Assembly: GCF_010587385.1 (NCBI RefSeq)
Contig: NZ_CP047476.1
Span: 1,488,001-1,552,000, forward strand
DNA length: 64,000 bases
Origin: Vibrio astriarenae
GTDB taxonomy: Bacteria; Pseudomonadota; Gammaproteobacteria; Enterobacterales; Vibrionaceae
Direction of reading: 5' to 3'
The notes below the pieces were generated by a model, which was not told the origin of the DNA, made no database searches, and saw only the letters and a list, made by a program, of their open reading frames with translations. The position numbers and the translations under genes were made by a program. Shown in pieces: positions 4,715 through 52,497 of the stretch (position 1 is its first letter; every line of letters starts with the position of its first letter).

Positions 4715-6577
4715 TTAAACAACGAACTTGTTAAGTGATGCAGATTGCTGTTCCACTAGGCGTGTTTGCTCATCAACTAGGCTAGATGTTTCTTGTGAAC
4801 GTTCAGAGACCTGACTAGAAAGGTCTTTGATATTCACAGTGTTGCCATTGATCTCTTCCGCAACGAGACTTTGCTCTTCAGCGGCTGAAGCGATCTGGAT
4901 GTTCATCTCCGTGATTTGCGAAATCGCTTCTTTAATGCTCACTAGTGACTGGTTCGCCGCATGCGCTTGCTCCACTGTTTCGATTGCTAGGTTGTGGCTT
5001 TGTGACATCGCAGACGCCGCTGTATTCGCACCGGCTTGCACATGCTCAATCATGTTGCGAATTTCAGTGGTCGACTCTGTTGTACGCTGCGCCAGTGTAC
5101 GAACCTCATCAGCAACAACAGCAAATCCGCGCCCGGACTCACCTGCGCGAGCGGCTTCGATCGCCGCGTTCAATGCCAATAAGTTGGTTTGATCAGCAAT
5201 ACCATTGATGACGCCAACAATTGATTCGATGTTCTCGGTTGATGATTCTAGCTGGCGCACGGTATTCGAGGCTTGTTCCATTTGATGCGCTAACGTTTGA
5301 ATCGAATCAGAGGTTGTTGAAACGATATTCGTACCTTCTTCTGAAGAAGCATCTGCCGCTTGGGCCGCTTGCGCTGCGTTTTGCGCATTTTCCGCAACCA
5401 GTGAACAGGTCGTCGACATTTCATTCATCGCTGTTGCCAGTTGCTCAACCTCTTGTACTTGGGTGTTTAGTAGCTGTCGAGAGTCATTGGCAGCAACATG
5501 AGTTGCCTCTGATACAGAGGTAACGTTTTTCGCCGTCTCTTGGCTCTCTTTGATCAGGTTTTGAATTGCCGCTACAAAGCTATTAAAGTTCTTAGCAAGT
5601 AAGCTGAACTCTTCATCGGTGTTGGTATCAAGGCGTTTTGTTAGATCGCCGTCACCACTTGCCACGCTTTTCATCGCTTCACTCAACTCGTTAATTGGGC
5701 GAAGCAGTAAGGTGGTCACGTACAAAAAGATACTTAAAGAGAGGGTAACCAGAATGACTGCTGTCATGATCGAGCTATTACGCATCTCTACTAAAGGCAT
5801 GTTGGTTTTGTCGTAATCGATAAGCATACCAACGTACCAGTTAGTGTTAGGTACAACGTCAAAATCTAGGTAGTAACTGCTGCCATTCATATCGATGGTG
5901 GTGAGCTCTGTGCTGATCTCTGCATTCGCAATATAGCTATTTAGAGGTTGTCCTTTTAGGCGCTCATTTGGGTGGCCAATAATGGTGCCTTTGTCATCTA
6001 CAATAAACAGCGTGCTGTGAGGGATATCCGCTTCATTTACGATGTCAGACAAACTTGATAGATCAACATCATAAAAAGTGACACCATACATCGAGCCTGA
6101 GCGGTACACTGGCTGAGAAATAGAAACTAAGATATTGCCGGTGCCTTCGTCGACATAAGGATCTGTAATTGCACGTTGGCGGAGTGTTTTGGCATCGATA
6201 TACCAAGGACGAGTTCTTGAGTCCCAAGAGCTTGGTGGTGTCCAGCTCGAATCATTGTGAACAATCGCACCATCTCCTTCATAGCCAATACCTGCGGTAA
6301 CGAAGACATCACGTAGGGAGGCCTGGTTAAAAATGTTGTACGCTTCGTCACGAGTGGATGTTGCGGCGAGTTCAGTTAGGTAATTCGAGATGGCAAACTT
6401 ACCTTCCATACTAGTGCTCAACGTATCGGCAACTTGCTCAAGTGACACGTCGATAATGGTCGAGTTCGCTTGCTCAACTTCTTCTTTTAGTGAGCTGTAG
6501 CTGATGGATGAAAGCAGAGTAAGCGACAGCGCGCTAACAACGGAAGCAGCAGCGATGACTTTGGTACGAAACTTCAT
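4715..6577 (-). CDS. Methyl-accepting chemotaxis protein with dCache sensor
   Basis: Transmembrane chemoreceptor of 620 aa. Order: N-terminal membrane segment (about 7-30); periplasmic double-Cache domain (about 35-270) with the signature [12 protein letters not shown] and ITDPYVD, typical of amino-acid or organic-acid binding; second membrane segment (about 273-293); HAMP domain (about 295-350); cytoplasmic signalling helices. The conserved hairpin tip reads [20 protein letters not shown] followed by [24 protein letters not shown] lies 4 nt before the ATG. No CheR-docking pentapeptide is seen at the C-terminus. Ligand unknown. Confidence 0.93.
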
Positions 6578-36136: not shown

Positions 36137-39100
36137 GTGACTCTTATCGCTTGCAAACAACACATGAAAACTATAAATCACTGTAATACACATCGCCCCA
36201 CGGTGGGGGTGATTATGCCACTGCTCAGTGGCTTCTACATGGGAGAGTTATGTATCGCACTGCGCCAAGTGGCAAAGCAGCAAGATATAAACCTCGTCTT
36301 TATTCGTTCCGGTGAGAGCCGCAACTACGAGTTGCCCATCGGCTTTGACAGCTTTGATGCGCTGCTTGTGGTGCTGCATAGTGCGGCTCATAAACTCATT
36401 GCTAAAGCGATTGATCGCAACATTCCTGTTATTTCGCTTGGGGCAAGTTATCGTCCTCTTCCTGTCGAGCAGTTTTATAGTGACCAGAACCAAGGGGTCG
36501 CCTTGCTCTACGATTGGCTGTGTGATTTAGGTCACGAGCGGATTGGGTTTTGCGGAGACTTAAGTGTCAACGACATACGCTTGCGATTTAAATCATTTCA
36601 ACAGAAAGTGCGGCAGCATCACGGTGAGTTTATCTCAGGTGATTTCTTCTCGGTCAGTGACTGCTCCTTTGCAGGAGGACGCGAAGCGGGTAAAGCTTTT
36701 GTTGAGAAGCAAAGCGAATGCTCTGCGGTGATTTGTGCCGCCGACCAAAATGCCATCGGTATGATTCAGCAACTAAAATCTCAAGGGCTGTCTTTGCCTG
36801 ATGATGTTGCTGTTGTCGGTATTGATAATATCTTTTTGGGCGAAAAAGCTTCAGTATCGCTCACTACGATCGATCAAAACCTCGAAGAGCTTGGGCGTAG
36901 CTCACTTCTGCGAGCAGTTGAGCGTATTCGCGGTGCCGCTTATAGTGCTGATACGGTAATGATCCCACAGCGTCTGGTGGTACGAAACTCATGTGGTAGC
37001 GGCGACATGAAGCCGAGCCATGAGGTGAGAAAAAGTGTTCGACAGCAAATGATGTCAGCAGATTCGCAATCACCGGCCGAGTTGTTTGAAAGCTTCTATT
37101 CTCAAGCAAAAGATGGCTTCGACTCTATCCTTGATGCGCAAAACTGCTTTGGCTACCATTTTGATGAGGCAGTGTTGGCTCACTGTCAATCTCAGCATTA
37201 TCAAGTAGAACAAACCCTTTATGCTAATGGCACAAGAGCAAAGCCCCTATCGACGGATAACAAGATAGCCTTTAGCGTCGACCAATTTCCCACCGCAATG
37301 CCGAGTCAGCACTATGTGTCCACGGTTGTTCCGGTAAAAACAGGCTTCGATGGTCACTGGAAACTGCTTTGTATTAATGATTCTCAGTCTATCGATCAGG
37401 GGGTGGGCTCATACTCAATGTTCTCTAACTACCTTGATATGCTCGCGCTGTTCATTGAGCGCGATGCTCTGCTTGAGACGGCGAACACAAGGCAAAAGAG
37501 CCTGCAACAGATCCTTCAGCAGCTTAAAGTTGTGTCTAATACCTCCAATGATGGCATCTGGGATTGGGATTTAATTACCAATAAGTTGACTTGGAATAGC
37601 CGACTCATTGATATGCTTGGTGTGACCGATATTGTCCGAGACTCCATAGACTGTAGTGATTTGTTTTCTTATATCCATCATGAGGATATTTCGTCGATTG
37701 AAGACAAGATCCATGAGCATCTGATCAATGATGCTCCTTTTAAGACCGAATTTCGTATGCGCACCGCATCGGGTGATTACTTGTGGGTTCAAGCCAACGG
37801 TGCTGCAGTGCAAAATAGCCATGGTCGTCCTATCCGTTTTATTGGCTCACTGACTGACATCACGCAACAAAGAGAAAGCGCCGAAAAAATCCATCATATG
37901 GCGTATTTTGATGCGCTAACAGGCATCGCTAACCGTCGTAAAATTATGCAGGACATTAATTTGTTCATTGGCGCTCATCAAGAAAAGCGACGCGCTGTGA
38001 TGTTGATGGACCTGAATCGGTTTAAAATGGTGAATGATACCTTTGGCCACCATACTGGGGATGCGTTGTTGCGACACGTATCAAAGCAGCTGTGTGAACT
38101 GCTGGGTGATCGCCAACAAATTGCCCGTCTAGGCGGAGATGAATTTTTGTTTTTCTGCGATGTGCAAAACCACGATCAGGTCAATGAACTCACCAGCCAG
38201 ATATTACGCCGGATTGCTCGACCTTTGGTGTTCGATGATATTGAGTTGGAAGCTCAGGGGAGTATCGGCGTCGCGTTTTATCCTCTAGACGGCAGCACGG
38301 CGGATGAGCTGATTAAAAAGGCTGATGTTGCAATGTATAAAGCCAAGCAAGCGGGTGGTGGGCGTGCAGTTGTCTACTCTTCAGAGATGGACTCTTCTAC
38401 TCAGAATTTGGTCACGATGGAGCATCACCTTAAAGGCGCGCTTAAACGAGACGAAATAGGTGTCCATTATCAACCTCAAGTTAGGGCTGATGATAACACC
38501 GTGGTGGGGGTTGAGGCGCTGGCGCGCTGGCGCTCGCCTGTATTAGGCGATGTCCCACCTTATCAGTTTATTCAAGTGGCAGAAGAGAGCGGTTTGATGA
38601 CCTCCTTTGGTGAGTACATCTTAAATCAAGTCTGCCGTGACTTATCTTCATCCGAATGGTTGAGGGGGCTCAACCGTATTTCAATTAACGTGAGTGCGAA
38701 GGAGCTGGTTAACCATCACTTTGCATCCTCTGCAATACAAACCATTCTTAACCATAAGCTGCCTCTGTCCCTATTCTGTTTTGAGATTACAGAAACAGCG
38801 GCTATCTCTGACTATGAGCAGTGTAGCCAGGTGCTGTTGCAACTTCACTCAGCTGGCATTGCTCTCTCTCTCGATGATTTTGGTACTGGCTTCTCTTCGT
38901 TATCACTTCTCAAGCGATTGCCATTAAATGAAGTAAAGATTGATCGATCGTTTATTCGCGACATCGTTGATGGCCAAGCGAACTTAGATTTTGTGGCCAC
39001 CATGATTCTCATGGGTAAAAGCCTAGGCTATCAAGTCGTTGCTGAAGGTGTTGAAACTGAAGCGCACTCAATGGCTCTAAAGAGCACCGGAATCGACATC

Positions 39101-39199
39101 TTGCAAGGTTACTCCTACAGTAAACCTAAACCGCTACATGAGTTAGAAGCTATTTATTGCAAGGCGCAAGCTCTTGGAGTGAACACTCTCGACGTCTAG
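36137..39199 (+). CDS. LacI-type sensor / PAS / GGDEF / EAL protein
   Basis: 1020-aa cytosolic cyclic-di-GMP enzyme. Order: LacI/GalR-type periplasmic-binding fold (about 20-290; VGVIMPLLSGFYMGEL, LGHERIGFCGD, LPDDVAVVGIDN) without any helix-turn-helix; a linker region (about 300-450); PAS domain (about 460-590; DGIWDWDLITNKLTWN, WVQANGAAVQNSHGRPIRFI); GGDEF domain with intact LGGDEFLFF; EAL domain with GVEALARWRSP and DDFGTGFSSLSLLKRLPLNE. Both catalytic motifs look functional. No membrane helix. The start is GTG 36137 or ATG 36164, both with weak ribosome sites. The sugar-like ligand is unknown. Confidence 0.92.
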   Translation: MTLIACKQHMKTINHCNTHRPTVGVIMPLLSGFYMGELCIALRQVAKQQDINLVFIRSGESRNYELPIGFDSFDALLVVLHSAAHKLIAKAIDRNIPVISLGASYRPLPVEQFYSDQNQGVALLYDWLCDLGHERIGFCGDLSVNDIRLRFKSFQQKVRQHHGEFISGDFFSVSDCSFAGGREAGKAFVEKQSECSAVICAADQNAIGMIQQLKSQGLSLPDDVAVVGIDNIFLGEKASVSLTTIDQNLEELGRSSLLRAVERIRGAAYSADTVMIPQRLVVRNSCGSGDMKPSHEVRKSVRQQMMSADSQSPAELFESFYSQAKDGFDSILDAQNCFGYHFDEAVLAHCQSQHYQVEQTLYANGTRAKPLSTDNKIAFSVDQFPTAMPSQHYVSTVVPVKTGFDGHWKLLCINDSQSIDQGVGSYSMFSNYLDMLALFIERDALLETANTRQKSLQQILQQLKVVSNTSNDGIWDWDLITNKLTWNSRLIDMLGVTDIVRDSIDCSDLFSYIHHEDISSIEDKIHEHLINDAPFKTEFRMRTASGDYLWVQANGAAVQNSHGRPIRFIGSLTDITQQRESAEKIHHMAYFDALTGIANRRKIMQDINLFIGAHQEKRRAVMLMDLNRFKMVNDTFGHHTGDALLRHVSKQLCELLGDRQQIARLGGDEFLFFCDVQNHDQVNELTSQILRRIARPLVFDDIELEAQGSIGVAFYPLDGSTADELIKKADVAMYKAKQAGGGRAVVYSSEMDSSTQNLVTMEHHLKGALKRDEIGVHYQPQVRADDNTVVGVEALARWRSPVLGDVPPYQFIQVAEESGLMTSFGEYILNQVCRDLSSSEWLRGLNRISINVSAKELVNHHFASSAIQTILNHKLPLSLFCFEITETAAISDYEQCSQVLLQLHSAGIALSLDDFGTGFSSLSLLKRLPLNEVKIDRSFIRDIVDGQANLDFVATMILMGKSLGYQVVAEGVETEAHSMALKSTGIDILQGYSYSKPKPLHELEAIYCKAQALGVNTLDV

Positions 39200-42725: not shown

Positions 42726-43835
42726 TTATTTTGCAACCAGACCATTGGGAAGATTGATAAATACCTCTGGGTGATGGTCGATCGTCGGCCCGACCCTCGG
42801 TGGTTGCCAGTCTAGCAGCATTATTGCTAGTACATTACGGTGTTCTCCATAAGCGAAATCAAAACTGCCTGTTTCGGAGGGCACCATTCCCTGCTGAAGG
42901 TCGACGGATTGCCTGATTGCTTCTCTTGCTTGTGCAACGAAAGGGTCTTCTTCGAGACCAGCAAGCAAAAAGCAGATGCCCACTTCGGCAATCACATCTT
43001 CTTTGGTGGCGCTTAGGATTTGATCCTGGTTGTCGCGAAAATAGTCAAATATCCATTGATGGTCAGATTCTTCCACTGGGCGTTGATAATACTCCGAATC
43101 AGCCAAAATGATGTGTGTCATACCGTAGAGTTTGTTCATGAACTGCTGTTTCGTCAGTTCTTGGTCTTTGTTGTCGGGATAGACCTCTTTAAAGCGTTGC
43201 ACAAACAGTTGTGTGTAGTCTTCTTCGCCAAGTTGTTTGAGCCAATAGACTTGGTTTGCCAACTGCGCCGCCCAGGCTTCAATCATGTCGCGATCCGTGA
43301 CGAAAAAGCGAAAGTCGTATTGTTTGAGGATTTTCCTTAGCTTTTCGTCCTGCTTGTGCTTAAGTCCATACTCGTTTGCTCTTGCCATTGACCCAAGTAG
43401 GTCAACCCCAAGATAAAGATACTCTGGTGTCCACTGTGTTGCGTGATAGCGTCTGCGACTTCTTTCATCGTAATCATCTAAATAGCCGAGCAACCGTTTG
43501 AGTGAGTATTGGGCAATTTCCTCGTCAGTGTCGATAGTATTGGCGAACAGGTTTAGTCGAGTAGCAATCCTAGTTAAGTCACTCTCGATCGCTGAAATGT
43601 ATCTTGGGTCATGAGTTTGGCGGTAAAGGCGAAGACCATAATGCCCCTTTTTAAATTGCGGCAGTTCATCTAGGCGAGTTTCGTAAGTCAGTTTGATTAA
43701 CTCAGCAGTATCTGCCTCACTAAGGCCGCTGTCTGCGAGCACTAAGGGTGTGGTAAGTAAGGTAGAGAGTAGGATTGAGAGAAACCAGTTTGTGCGAGTC
43801 GCAAACTGAGTCAATGTGGCCGTTTGCAGAGGCAT
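42726..43835 (-). CDS. DUF3541-like secreted protein
   Basis: 369 aa. ATG 43835 follows AAGGAAATTTCA, and the chosen N-terminus gives a signal peptide (TNWFLSILLSTLLTTPLVLA, cleavage before DSG). The longer frame to 43982 is rejected. The mature part is helical and rich in charged and aromatic residues (KKGHYGLRLYRQTHDPRYIS, QWTPEYLYLGVDLLGS, GSFDFAYGEHRNVLAIMLLDW). From memory this matches the DUF3541 family found in Vibrio; no biochemical function is known to me. Possibly periplasmic. Confidence 0.75.
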   Translation of the reverse strand: MPLQTATLTQFATRTNWFLSILLSTLLTTPLVLADSGLSEADTAELIKLTYETRLDELPQFKKGHYGLRLYRQTHDPRYISAIESDLTRIATRLNLFANTIDTDEEIAQYSLKRLLGYLDDYDERSRRRYHATQWTPEYLYLGVDLLGSMARANEYGLKHKQDEKLRKILKQYDFRFFVTDRDMIEAWAAQLANQVYWLKQLGEEDYTQLFVQRFKEVYPDNKDQELTKQQFMNKLYGMTHIILADSEYYQRPVEESDHQWIFDYFRDNQDQILSATKEDVIAEVGICFLLAGLEEDPFVAQAREAIRQSVDLQQGMVPSETGSFDFAYGEHRNVLAIMLLDWQPPRVGPTIDHHPEVFINLPNGLVAK

Positions 43836-44030
43836 TGAAATTTCCTTTTTATATTGAACCCTATTTGCTTCGGTTAGGGATACCGGAAACAAGGACAAAA
43901 TATGACCGAGCAAAACGTTGCTTCCGTTGATCAAATATAGCATCACCGGATTGAGCCTTGTAAGTAGATTGTCAAAACTCATATTGATAGGTTATTGGTT
44001 GCATCTTAGGTATTGCGAAAGTGAATTTTG

Positions 44031-44080
44031 TTGCAAAATGCAATCGAAAATATTTGCATTAAGCAAATGCGTGCAATTTG
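44031..44080. promoter_or_regulatory. LuxO-type activator boxes upstream of the qrr sRNA
   Basis: TTGCAAAATGCAA (44031-44043) is an exact TTGCA-N3-TGCAA dyad, the known LuxO binding pattern. A second, looser site follows: TTGCATTAAGCAA at 44054-44066, with further TGCAA at 44072. They sit about 85-130 bp before the sigma-54 promoter, as expected for an enhancer. Confidence 0.82.
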
Positions 44081-44161
44081 TGAGGTTCACTTATGCACAG
44101 AGTTGGTCTTAAAGTGGTCGAATAGTCACCAAAAAAGGTGTTTTCGACCGTTTTTAAAAGT

Positions 44162-44177
44162 TGGCACACAGAATGCA
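44162..44177 (+). promoter_or_regulatory. Sigma-54 promoter of the qrr sRNA
   Basis: TGGCACACAGAATGCA: the -24 GG (44163-44164) and the -12 GC (44175-44176) are separated by 10 nt, the canonical sigma-54 spacing. Transcription would begin near 44187, the start of the first Qrr hairpin. Confidence 0.88.
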
Positions 44178-44186
44178 TTAATGACA

Positions 44187-44299
44187 GTGACCCTTATTAA
44201 GCCGAGGGTCACCTAGCCAACTGACGTTGTTAGTGAACCTTTATTGTTCACAAAAAATATAGCGCCAATCACTCTTACTTTGTGATTGGCTTTTTTTTT
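44187..44299 (+). ncRNA. qrr: Qrr quorum-regulatory small RNA
   Basis: Hfq-dependent sRNA of about 112 nt made at low cell density under phospho-LuxO and sigma-54. Three stem-loops are visible. GTGACCCT/AGGGTCAC lies at 44187-44213. The conserved Qrr pairing core, including AGCCAACTGACGTTGTTAGT, follows at 44212-44236. GTGAAC/GTTCAC is at 44233-44251. The terminator GCCAATCAC/GTGATTGGC with T9 is at 44264-44299. In vibrios Qrr RNAs control luxR/hapR/opaR, luxO and aphA mRNAs (family knowledge). Which of the Qrr1-5 paralogues this is cannot be assigned. It lies between the DUF3541 and XRE-regulator genes. Confidence 0.93.
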
Positions 44300-44314
44300 G
44301 CCTAAAATTCGCTA

Positions 44315-45847
44315 TCACGGCTTTTCTACCACTGATATTGGGTCCCCATAACAACTTGGTTCTCGTGGACATGCGGCACCGCGCGCACAAATAACGCGAG
44401 CTGGGCCATTCAAACCACGTTCAATCCAATTGATGTTGAGTATCTTTGCGATAGTGGTGAGGTCTTTACGGATTGTCAAAGGAATCTGGGCGCTGCCTCC
44501 AGATTGGACACACACTTTTTTCAACTGCTCTGCCATACTCACAGCATCGCCCCCTTGTGCTTCTATAGCAGGATTAAGGTCTATTCCGGCACAAAGCACC
44601 CGATTATTGCCTGCTAAATCCATCATGTTTGCAGACTCACAGCAATAGATCCGTGGTTCATCACCAACATGTAAAATAGAGATTTGAGCCGAACTGCCAG
44701 ACTGGGGTTCGGATAAGCGTCTGAAGACCGCCCAATGCTGACAGGGGTCGTTAACCTGACGCATATTTCCCCACGGAAGCGGAATACCATTTCCTCTATA
44801 TACCGCTTTTAGCTTGTTCTGCCCGTAAGCGTCGAAGTAGTGCCAGTGGGGGTAGGGAGAGACCACGGTCATCCGACGCATTGCAACAGAGGGAGAAACG
44901 CCGGCTTTTTGATGAACACTGATTTCATACCCATTACGATCAAGGAGTTGTCTGTAGGGTACTTTCGGACACAAAAGTGCTCCAGCGAAGAAACTCGACT
45001 CAAAATCGCGCCATGCTTGAAGGATATCTTGTGAGTTCAACTCGACGTGAGCGCTCTGATGGATGTTGTCCTCCCATGTGTTCGCGCTGCCTACGAGAAG
45101 AACGTTTTTTAGGCTGTCTCGGTTATGTAGAACGCAATGACCGATATAGACACTTAAATCGTACTTCAATCGGGTTGGGTAGTCCTTTAGGACCTCATTA
45201 AGGTATATCGTACTCGGTGGCTCAAAGAAGGAGCTAATTACCTGTTTACTGCTCACCCCTAGCTCATCCACCACGTCTTGGGGAGTACGCTGTATCCATC
45301 GGATAGTGACTCCCAACGATTTTGCAATATCGATTAAATCTTCAACGCTCATGTTGAGTCGCTTTAAACCGACCTCTTCCGCGGCTCTCTCAAGGTCAGG
45401 GAAATGGTTTTGATTGCTTTCTTGATGGGCGCGAATCAACAAATGAGCAAACTGGCGACCTGTAATTCCTGCCTGAGAGAGCATTTCAGGGATGGCTATC
45501 TGTAAAATGTCATTAGAAAACAGAAAGCTAGGCTCTAGAGCCATGCCACTAATCCCCCCTCTACGCCCTTTGTCTGGGGTTATTGCCTCTTGTTCTGGCT
45601 CATCATCTAGGAACCAGGCGGGGTCTTTTTGAAAAACTTGGGCAATCACCGATAGCATATCCACGCTAGGGACTCGTTTACCTCTTTCTATCATGGAAAG
45701 ATAAGACACAGAGGGGGCATAGTCGGGGTCGATACGTATGCAGCGAGCAGACAAATCTTCCATCGTAAGGTGATTGCGCTTACGAAGGTTGCGTATTTTG
45801 GTCCCAAGAAAGTGGGACTGGCGGACTAAACTTTTTGACAGGCTCAT
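44315..45847 (-). CDS. XRE-family regulator of the RamB/ScfR (DUF2083/DUF3612) type
   Basis: 510-aa transcription factor. The N-terminal helix-turn-helix (about 12-75) reads LGTKIRNLRKRNHLTMEDLS, then APSVSYLSMIERGKRVPSVD. The long C-terminal region has an IrrE-like middle and ends with a cysteine cluster (VICARGAACPREPSCYG), as in short-chain fatty-acyl responsive regulators such as RamB, which control glyoxylate-cycle genes. It is divergent from a malate-synthase-G-like gene, consistent with that role by analogy. Repeated TTGTAAAATT motifs lie at its start. Its 3' end is 15 bp from the qrr terminator, convergent. Confidence 0.82.
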   Translation of the reverse strand: MSLSKSLVRQSHFLGTKIRNLRKRNHLTMEDLSARCIRIDPDYAPSVSYLSMIERGKRVPSVDMLSVIAQVFQKDPAWFLDDEPEQEAITPDKGRRGGISGMALEPSFLFSNDILQIAIPEMLSQAGITGRQFAHLLIRAHQESNQNHFPDLERAAEEVGLKRLNMSVEDLIDIAKSLGVTIRWIQRTPQDVVDELGVSSKQVISSFFEPPSTIYLNEVLKDYPTRLKYDLSVYIGHCVLHNRDSLKNVLLVGSANTWEDNIHQSAHVELNSQDILQAWRDFESSFFAGALLCPKVPYRQLLDRNGYEISVHQKAGVSPSVAMRRMTVVSPYPHWHYFDAYGQNKLKAVYRGNGIPLPWGNMRQVNDPCQHWAVFRRLSEPQSGSSAQISILHVGDEPRIYCCESANMMDLAGNNRVLCAGIDLNPAIEAQGGDAVSMAEQLKKVCVQSGGSAQIPLTIRKDLTTIAKILNINWIERGLNGPARVICARGAACPREPSCYGDPISVVEKP

Positions 45848-45876: not shown

Positions 45877-46006
45877 TTGTGAAATTGTAGTTAGTTTTCG
45901 GCTAATCTACCAAGTAAGCGACATCACAAATTTAACCGAAACTTAAACGTGTGTTTGAAATATTCGCTGTACAACAAAATGACGAGTGCTGTGTGAGGGA
46001 ATGACC

Positions 46007-46579
46007 ATGAATATGCTAACGATGAATACAACAACATTTGAGAACAAGAAAAAGCCATTTATCGCTGAAGCTGTTGTCGCGGTCGAAACGCTCGCTGCAG
46101 AAGCAACAGACCAAAAAAGCTGCCAGAGTAAACAAATCTTAGATGAGCTGTTTCCTTTAGAGTCTGGCTCACATCAAGACGTGACGGCTTATATGATTGA
46201 TTATCGCCACTTGGTTGCTTACTTCAAAGATGGCACACATTCAGGTTTACGTCATCCAAAGCACTTTGTGGCCTATAACGGTGAGAAAGAGACGCCGTGT
46301 TCAATATTGTTGCGTGACGGGCAAGGTAGCCATGTTGAAGTGATGATGGGATGCCATCGTGGAACAGGTTGCGTAGAGCTCACCCGTATTGACGATATTC
46401 AAATAGAGTGCTGCTCGACCCTATCGCAACAAAATCAACCGTGTGAAGTAGGTATGCGCCACTGGATTAGTTTGATTAAGAGTGATCGTAAAGGCAAACC
46501 TGCGGCGCGCAGTGAAGATAAAGAGTTTACTGCCAAGGATGGCAATGACTACACGCTTGAAACGTCATATCAGCTTTAA
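46007..46579 (+). CDS. Short malate synthase G-like protein lacking the catalytic barrel
   Basis: 190 aa from ATG 46007, with GAGGGA 6 nt upstream. DELFPLESGSHQDVTAYMID, DGTHSGLRHPKHFVAYNGEK and SILLRDGQGSHVEVMMG follow the inserted domain of malate synthase G, and MRHWISLIKSDRKGKPAARS and EFTAKDGNDYTLETS match the segment after it. The TIM-barrel with the catalytic Arg, Glu and Asp residues is missing, so malate synthase activity is not expected. The gene ends at a normal stop with a terminator behind it. Next to a RamB-like regulator, it may be a relic or a regulated accessory domain. Confidence 0.65.
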   Translation: MNMLTMNTTTFENKKKPFIAEAVVAVETLAAEATDQKSCQSKQILDELFPLESGSHQDVTAYMIDYRHLVAYFKDGTHSGLRHPKHFVAYNGEKETPCSILLRDGQGSHVEVMMGCHRGTGCVELTRIDDIQIECCSTLSQQNQPCEVGMRHWISLIKSDRKGKPAARSEDKEFTAKDGNDYTLETSYQL

Positions 46580-51384: not shown

Positions 51385-52275
51385 ATGGCAATGGTTCAAG
51401 GTAAATCACTTAAATACCGCGTTTGGGCTACTCACATTGCAATGTGGGCATTCCTATCGCTGATTATCTTCCCACTACTGATGATTATCGCTATCTCGTT
51501 CCGTGAGGGTAACTTCGCAACGGGTAGCCTAATCCCAGATAATCCATCATTGGAGCACTGGAAATTAGCTCTGGGCTTCTCGGTTGAGAAAGCAGACGGC
51601 ACCATCGTACCGCCTCCATTCCCAGTACTAACTTGGTTATGGAACTCGATCAAAGTTGCGGGTATTTCATCTATCCTGATTGTATGTCTGTCTACCACTT
51701 CTGCGTACGCGTTTGCTCGTATGAAGTTCAAAGGCAAGAATACAATCCTAAAAGCGATGATGATCTTCCAAATGTTCCCAGCGGTACTGGCTCTGGTTGC
51801 ACTGTACGCATTGTTTGACAAGCTAGGTCAATACATCCCATTCCTAGGTTTGAACACACACGGTGGTCTAATCTTCGCTTACTTGGGTGGTATTGCACTG
51901 CACGTATGGACAATCAAAGGTTACTTCGAAACGATTGATGGCTCGCTTGAAGAAGCGGCAGCACTAGATGGCGCGACACCATGGCAAGCATTCCGTTTGG
52001 TTCTACTGCCACTGTCAGTGCCAATACTAGCGGTTGTATTCATCCTGTCGTTCATCATGGTGGTGGGTGAAGTACCGGTAGCATCACTACTACTTTCTGA
52101 TGTAAACTCGTACACACTAGCAGTTGGTATGCAGCAGTACCTGCACCCACAAAACTACCTATGGGGTGATTTTGCGGCGGCGGCAGTATTGTCAGCATTC
52201 CCGATTACTATCGTATTCTTACTTGCACAGCGTTGGCTGGTTGGTGGTCTAACCGCCGGCGGTGTTAAAGGATAA
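51385..52275 (+). CDS. malG: Maltose ABC transporter permease MalG
   Basis: 296-aa inner-membrane permease (E. coli MalG 296), six helices. The EAA loop reads [20 protein letters not shown], followed by [19 protein letters not shown], and the C-terminus ends [10 protein letters not shown], matching MalG. AAGGAGG lies 6 nt before the ATG. Last gene of malEFG, with a GC-rich hairpin and then a probable sRNA downstream. Confidence 0.96.
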
Positions 52276-52284
52276 TAACGATAA

Positions 52285-52304
52285 GGGCGACCGCAAGGTC
52301 GCCC
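52285..52304 (+). terminator. Hairpin after malG
   Basis: Perfect 8-bp stem GGGCGACC / GGTCGCCC with GCAA loop, followed by AGTTGTTTT. Weak T run, so it may attenuate rather than stop transcription. Confidence 0.65.
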
Positions 52305-52309
52305 AGTTG

Positions 52310-52497
52310 TTTTGACTGACTCTTCTCGGCTTATGTGGAATAGGGATGAGAAGAAACTTTGGTTTGGCCGCCGACATGTTAGTCAAATGCAACAGTTTGG
52401 TGTTACGCATAGCTGGCTGTCGAAGTATTCCTTACTATATGCGTGCTACGACAGTAAATTTGTAACGAAAGCCCGATGAACATTCGGGCTTTTTTTA
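52310..52497 (+). ncRNA. Candidate MicX-type sRNA downstream of malG
   Basis: About 190 nt of non-coding sequence after malG, ending in a strong terminator: AGCCCGA/TCGGGCT (52470-52476 and 52484-52490) with T7. In V. cholerae the sRNA MicX, a porin-mRNA regulator, lies at this position beside the maltose permease gene (from memory). Internal complementarity (CTTCTC..GAGAAG near 52322-52354) supports a structured RNA. The 5' end is not defined, and homology has not been computed. Confidence 0.55.

Follow-up and report, generated by a model that had tools for sequence, protein, structure and literature searches.

Does the intergenic DNA at positions 44031–44299 of a Vibrio astriarenae chromosome stretch hold a working quorum-sensing RNA gene, and, if so, which gene is it and what would control it? 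The stretch analysed, hereafter the window, comprises 64,000 nucleotides (nt) and lies on the smaller of the two contigs of the genome (3.12 and 1.68 Mb). A sequence-only reading of the window had proposed, at this place, a Qrr small RNA with LuxO boxes and a sigma-54 promoter, placing the region under the control of phospho-LuxO, and had raised possible interference from a convergent regulator gene.

The Qrr4 RNA and its sigma-54 promoter

The features of the locus, in window coordinates, are as follows:
42726–43982, − strand: gene for a DUF3541 protein, divergent, 5′ of qrr4 (Pfam PF12060, 497 bits)
44031–44043, + strand: LuxO box 1, TTGCAAAATGCAA, an exact TTGCA-N3-TGCAA dyad
44054–44066, + strand: LuxO box 2, TTGCATTAAGCAA, with one mismatch to the dyad
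44091–44117, + strand: conserved element TTATGCACAGAGTTGGTCTTAAAGTGG, with TATG-N6-GTT at 44092–44104, between the LuxO boxes and the promoter
44116–44149, + strand: terminator-like hairpin, GGTCGAA...TTCGACC then GTTTTT, read from the sequence and with no counterpart at this position in a related genome, G007
44161–44178, + strand: sigma-54 promoter (−24/−12), TTGGCACACAGAATGCAT, with 0 mismatches and its place kept in relatives
44188–44299, + strand: Qrr4 small RNA, from the Rfam RF00378 match and the fold
44212–44229, + strand: Qrr core, CCTAGCCAACTGACGTTG, from the sequence and the Rfam match
44264–44299, + strand: Qrr4 intrinsic terminator, with a 9-bp stem and T9
44315–45847, − strand: gene for a convergent XRE/DUF3612 regulator, syntenic marker of qrr4 (Pfam PF12268, 334 bits; HTH_3, 46.6 bits)

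A search with the Rfam Qrr model, the check on which the sequence-only reading had staked its proposal, gives a full-length match at 44188–44299 on the + strand (RF00378; 116.1 bits, cut-off 50; E 8e-22; model positions 1–108 of 108), which bears the proposal out. No other Rfam family matches 43850–44400 at E up to 1. The predicted RNA is 112 nt long, ends at the T9 terminator, and has the features by which the family is recognised: a conserved core with CCAACTGACG and a terminal stem-loop with a T run. The earlier reading had placed both the core and the T9 terminator correctly. The core is the target-pairing region, a role established for Qrr RNAs. The minimum-energy fold (−34.3 kcal/mol) comprises four stem-loops, in place of the three first proposed, and lies 5.3 standard deviations below shuffles. 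Together, the Rfam E value and the fold indicate that the RNA is not a product of chance; the feature is an ordinary, well-conserved qrr4 copy, belonging to a known RNA family through which Vibrio cells respond to crowding.

From the sigma-54 promoter, the +1 position is predicted at 44188, where the Rfam match also begins. TTGGCACACAGAATGCAT is the only match to the sigma-54 motif in the 64-kb window (0 mismatches); with up to 1 mismatch, 0.93 matches are expected and 60 of 100 window shuffles hold at least one, so that the motif alone is not significant. The LuxO box consensus is quoted, in the available text of PMC11443567, as TTGCAW3TGCAA; sites with up to 1 mismatch number five in the window against 5.1 expected in shuffles, and the boxes alone are therefore no more than chance would give. 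The support that these single-window counts do not give comes from the recurrence of boxes and promoter, in place, across relatives, for which named genomes were scanned with the convergent XRE protein and the best 80 of 404 loci were taken. In particular, 76 of 78 relatives from the best 80 of 404 have at least one LuxO box (up to 1 mismatch) no more than 230 bases 5′ of the Qrr core, and the two that have none (L063 and L086) have their upstream DNA cut by contig ends; the −24/−12 element is in place by script in 76 of 77 qrr4 promoters (the window plus 76 loci from the same 80 of 404), with the −24 GG at −24 to −26, and in the 77th (L082) by eye. Both the LuxO boxes, one exact and one near-exact, and the canonical −24/−12 promoter of the earlier reading are thus borne out. 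In G007, TTGCAAATTGCAA stands at the place of LuxO box 1, and LuxO box 2 is not kept. The broader proposal that phospho-LuxO controls this region of the chromosome narrows to a predicted control of one RNA gene.

The qrr4 locus across Vibrio and its neighbours

The Qrr core word occurs past the XRE stop codon, on the opposite strand, in 78 of the best 80 of 404 loci; those with a Qrr core convergent to the DUF3612 gene include V. harveyi, V. anguillarum, V. mimicus, and V. furnissii. The suggestion that no protein marks the RNA does not quite hold: the DUF3612 XRE gene marks qrr4 in all of these 78. In the remaining two (L069, Vibrio sp. Isolate32; L110, V. maerlii), the 9.5 kb of each stretch, which holds no masked bases, contains no Qrr core word and no Rfam Qrr match. 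According to the available parts of PMC3323551, V. parahaemolyticus qrr4 sits between VPA0199 and VPA0200. The qrr4 primer given in the same partial source fits the Qrr found here in V. harveyi and V. diabolicus with 0 mismatches, and the other four Qrr loci of either genome with 2–7; among seven loci of that group, it has 0 mismatches in four, 1 in L103, 2 in L099, and 7 in L104. Since the window RNA lies at the locus whose Qrr this primer matches, it is, judged by locus and primer match, the orthologue of V. harveyi and V. parahaemolyticus qrr4. In G007, the body of the Qrr4 RNA is almost identical to that of the window and the flanks have diverged. The fixed locus, convergent to the DUF3612 regulator gene, makes qrr4 trackable through the genus.

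The qrr4 locus of V. thalassae (L084) has two full Qrr matches, at 5572–5681 and 6465–6574 (101.6 and 101.9 bits), 893 bp apart and with an identical LuxO box word at both, reflecting a local duplication or an assembly effect.

The convergent gene does end as close to the terminator as first reported, 15 bp away: its stop codon reaches 44315, against 44299 for the last base of the Qrr. This proximity, and the convergence of the two genes in 78 of the best 80 of 404 loci, would fit a reading in which the XRE/DUF3612 gene and qrr4 impede each other's transcription, with expression of the regulator tuning qrr4. The tight gap is, however, the usual arrangement. Among the 78 loci from the best 80 of 404, the distance from the XRE stop to the first T-run of the Qrr has a median of 21 bp; it does not exceed 30 bp in 50 loci or 50 bp in 65, and is slightly negative in five, where T-run and stop overlap (the outlier, 918 in L084, is measured to the farther of the two Qrrs). 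A short gap being the common state, the convergent layout appears to be widely tolerated. Moreover, T-rich DNA lies 3′ of the Qrr terminator stem on the opposite strand as well, so that the terminator may stop both transcripts. We therefore consider mutual interference very unlikely, and the earlier suggestion of it finds no support.

On the other side of qrr4, the start codon of the DUF3541 gene is uncertain (a later start, by eye, would give a signal peptide), and some 0.2 kb separates the start of the gene from qrr4. Among the named loci, 27 have both DUF3541 and a Qrr, and there the DUF3541 match begins 1.0–3.2 kb from the Qrr core, at least 1.9 kb in 25 of the 27; the short distance in the window reflects a local loss or a rearrangement. 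Other features of the window include, adjoining the DUF3612 gene, a 197-residue protein with a malate synthase G insertion domain (45986–46579; PF20658; NF006511, 269 bits); one 1020-residue protein with a LacI-type sugar-binding domain, PAS, GGDEF, and EAL (36137–39199); and the MicX small RNA (52272–52497; RF01808, 93.7 bits, cut-off 75), which, by eye, lies beyond maltose-transport-like genes.

Elements upstream of the promoter

Between the LuxO boxes and the promoter, the pattern TATG-N6-GTT is present in 46 of 77 qrr4 promoters (the window included; loci from the best 80 of 404), at 67–70 bp before the −24 element in 42 of those 46; in 200 rounds of dinucleotide shuffling, the number averages 1.3 and never exceeds 6. 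These counts are to be read with the origin of the pattern in mind: the initial fit of the motif started from a seed taken out of the listed promoters themselves, a step that is circular by design, and the motif was then reduced to TATG-N6-GTT, a pattern chosen after the data had been seen, in loci related by descent. The fitted motif also scores outside recognised qrr4 loci, at 21.0 in L189 (G007 contig 1) and 20.7 in L018 against 22.1 in the window, in a scan in which recognition of qrr4 loci by the script was incomplete. As an AphA box, the conserved element TTATGCACAGAGTTGGTCTTAAAGTGG is rejected, scoring 4.9 at its best register.

In the partial texts of PMC2680268, PMC3323551, and PMC3440409, the published qrr4 promoters of V. 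harveyi and V. parahaemolyticus carry a LuxR/OpaR box and an AphA box, the latter predicted, in the available part of PMC3440409, only for five Clade I species. In the window promoter, we found no LuxR/OpaR box (best score 4.3; the published sites underlying the matrix score 10.7–18.2) and no convincing AphA box (best 9.7, compared with 12.3–23.4 for the matrix sites; 13 places in the window score as well as 9.7). With an OpaR matrix built without qrr4 sites and a threshold set at the top 0.05 percent of the window, 30 of 76 qrr4 promoters (from the best 80 of 404 loci; the 77th, L066, was dropped for its short upstream DNA) have a LuxR/OpaR box. The box, which serves direct feedback in V. harveyi and V. 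parahaemolyticus, varies between clades and does not define Qrr4 RNA.

The raw counts suggest mutual exclusion of the two elements: among these loci from the best 80 of 404, an OpaR box is present in 5 of 46 promoters with the TATG element versus 25 of 30 without it, and an AphA score of at least 12 in 0 of 46 and 2 of 30, respectively. Striking as these counts are, exclusion was rejected. A quick XRE protein tree of 82 rows requires no fewer than 6 changes of the TATG element and 10 of the OpaR box. An independent-pairs test of element against OpaR box, for which well-supported branches provided 3 pairs, shows no significance (median p 1). Given the at least 6 changes of the element and the median p of 1, we claim no association beyond shared descent, and the contrast may be plain shared descent.

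As to what binds the TATG-N6-GTT element, a search of the literature, within the parts of sources available and with the V. cholerae Fis/HapR-feedback papers cited by PMC2680268 set aside, found no mention of it. The available text of PMC2680268 describes, in V. cholerae, both indirect action of HapR on the qrr genes, via an unknown factor, and binding of Fis between the LuxO site and the qrr promoter; that of PMC8630636 describes Fis as binding each of the five qrr promoters in V. parahaemolyticus. The candidate binders are Fis and the factor that mediates the action of HapR. A bolder reading, which we hold to be improbable, is that qrr4 promoters come in two architectures: one with a LuxR/HapR box 5′ of the LuxO boxes, in V. 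harveyi- and V. splendidus-related loci, for direct feedback, and one with a TATG-N6-GTT-N4-TGAAA-like element between LuxO boxes and promoter, in most others, including the window and V. mimicus, that would be the docking site of the factor for indirect activation by HapR in V. cholerae-type vibrios, or of Fis. The element occurs in vibrios of the kind for which the accessible part of PMC2680268 describes indirect HapR feedback on qrr (V. cholerae), and it offers a concrete handle on the mediator.

The hairpin at 44116–44149 could be read as the end of a second short transcript, such that the promoter region itself makes RNA, a possibility that we rate below interference by the XRE gene. The GGTCGAA/TTCGACC stem followed by GTTTTT would suit such a terminator, and a few relatives (L042, L044) have other stems near this place. 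The hairpin is, however, absent in G007, Qrr is alone in Rfam here at E up to 1, and a scan of 43850–44400 gave no sigma-70-like promoter 5′ of the hairpin and no terminator there, the terminator scan having allowed loops of 3–8 only and having missed the Qrr terminator too. As a conserved terminator or a second RNA, the hairpin was rejected on its absence in G007 and the Rfam result; it is probably incidental.

Other Qrr copies, the predicted circuit, and known systems

The genome has five Qrr matches (RF00378), one of them under the cut-off, and the window copy scores best. On the contig of the window, contig 2, two further copies lie on one strand 167 bp apart, at 611985–612092 and 612260–612362 (L141 8986–9363). 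One is altered in its core, which reads CCAATTGACG, and also has TGGTATATGTCATGC and a weakened −24 element; the other, located upstream of it, is altered in its 5′ stem. A search allowing up to 2 mismatches, run from 600 bp upstream across both copies, yielded no LuxO box; the altered-core copy does have a LuxR-box-like site (11.0), located in the gap between the two. Two of 227 genomes of the genus contain the altered core word: this one and G126, in which it sits at a Qrr. At the corresponding place, G007 has a single Qrr with an intact core, a LuxO box (one mismatch) at −166, and TGGCACACTACGTGC. The contig 2 locus looks like one copy degraded beside an extra copy, and the comparison with G007 shows one Qrr locus altered and doubled between two related genomes.

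The copy under the cut-off is a divergent Qrr on contig 1, at 1766886–1766983 (L005 1501–1598; 44.5 bits), between genes for a DUF1349 protein and a cation-efflux transporter. It has an exact LuxO box, a −12 element that reads TTGT, and a LuxR-box-like site (10.8) that is not kept in G007 (2.0). Its counterpart in G007 scores 53.8 bits; 60 nt are identical in both genomes, and the flanks differ. Among 226 genomes of the genus, the word CCAACTGACGTTGTTTAAGAACC, allowing up to 1 mismatch, is found in 2, namely this one and G007. Neither the contig 2 pair nor the contig 1 copy could be accepted as an orthologue of other Qrr loci in the genomes compared, there being only weak, paralogue-like flank matches in the stretches compared.

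Across the genus, a Qrr match (E up to 0.001, and so including some under the cut-off) is present in 140 of 148 genomes, with 1 match in 11 genomes, 2 in 14, 3 in 18, 4 in 75, 5 in 16, 7 in 2, 8 in 3, and 9 in 1. The commonest number, 4, accords with the 4 or 5 qrr genes given as most common in the available text of PMC8043402, which suggests that qrr1 is ancestral. Seven to nine matches occur in G131, G067, G084, G110, G072, and G111, with 8, 8, 8, 8, 5, and 6 above the cut-off, respectively; some lie 1.4–3.5 kb apart, such as those on G067 contig 2 at 264179, 265588, and 268135.

That the window Qrr is itself a silent relic, the genome relying on its other copies, is the least probable reading of all: the degraded look of the contig 2 locus (altered core, weakened −24 element, no LuxO box) and the two of the best 80 of 404 relatives with no Qrr around the XRE gene (L069, L110) would be in keeping with it, but the window copy outscores the other four, has its core, promoter, and terminator intact, and has an RNA body nearly identical in G007 while the flanks diverged.

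The feature is almost certainly qrr4, one of the five Qrr matches of the genome, predicted to be driven by phospho-LuxO and sigma-54 at low cell density and to act with Hfq on the hapR/luxR homologue. The dependence on phospho-LuxO, the action with Hfq, and the targets we infer from the known Qrr pathway. The genome encodes Hfq and RpoN, a LuxO beside Qrr1 (783.9 bits against a whole-protein cut-off of 800, the piece being cut by the end of the locus), a HapR-type regulator (350.3 bits, cut-off 350), and a PadR-family gene that we take to be AphA-like. At low cell density, phosphorylated LuxO would bind the boxes and, by DNA looping, drive sigma-54 RNA polymerase at 44161–44178; the polymerase would make the 112-nt RNA, ending at the T9 terminator; and the RNA, with Hfq, would pair through CCTAGCCAACTGACGTTG with target mRNAs and repress the hapR/luxR homologue. 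At high cell density, LuxO would be unphosphorylated and Qrr4 RNA off. In the available part of PMC8043402, Qrrs with a full stem act on aphA and Qrr1 does not; Qrr4 is of the Qrr2–5 type, with a full first stem-loop, and should therefore activate aphA.

The pairing energy computed for the Qrr core and the hapR leader of the same genome, −21.6 kcal/mol, is only weakly better than chance: 23 of 1000 leaders after shuffling, and 83 of 1000 pieces drawn at random from the window, attain it. Duplexes of the whole window RNA with the hapR, aphA, and luxO leaders are unremarkable (35, 34, and 93 of 200 shuffles as good, respectively). Among 15 comparisons of whole Qrrs with leaders, there is one outlier, the degraded-looking contig 2 copy at 611985, whose duplex with the hapR leader is equalled by 1 of 200 shuffles.

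Within its own genome, the window Qrr4 differs from Qrr1, beside luxO, which has a shorter first stem-loop; from the contig 1 variant, which is under the cut-off; and from the contig 2 pair, which is without LuxO boxes and altered in core or 5′ stem. The window promoter differs from those of V. harveyi and V. parahaemolyticus in the LuxR/OpaR and AphA boxes, which are published for the latter, in the partial texts cited above, and were found in neither case in the window; and it has the TATG-N6-GTT element, which the qrr4 loci of V. harveyi (L101) and V. diabolicus (L095) are without. The convergent DUF3612 neighbour is shared with both of these loci. The qrr4 loci of V. mimicus (L089), V. anguillarum (L055), and V. 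furnissii (L078) have the same neighbour, core, promoter, and TATG-N6-GTT element as the window, with LuxO boxes that differ in sequence and place. The locus is an expected part of Vibrio quorum sensing, and its use is comparative. The RNA family, the core, and the sigma-54/LuxO plan of the promoter are all shared between the window Qrr4 and the Qrr4 of V. harveyi and V. parahaemolyticus.
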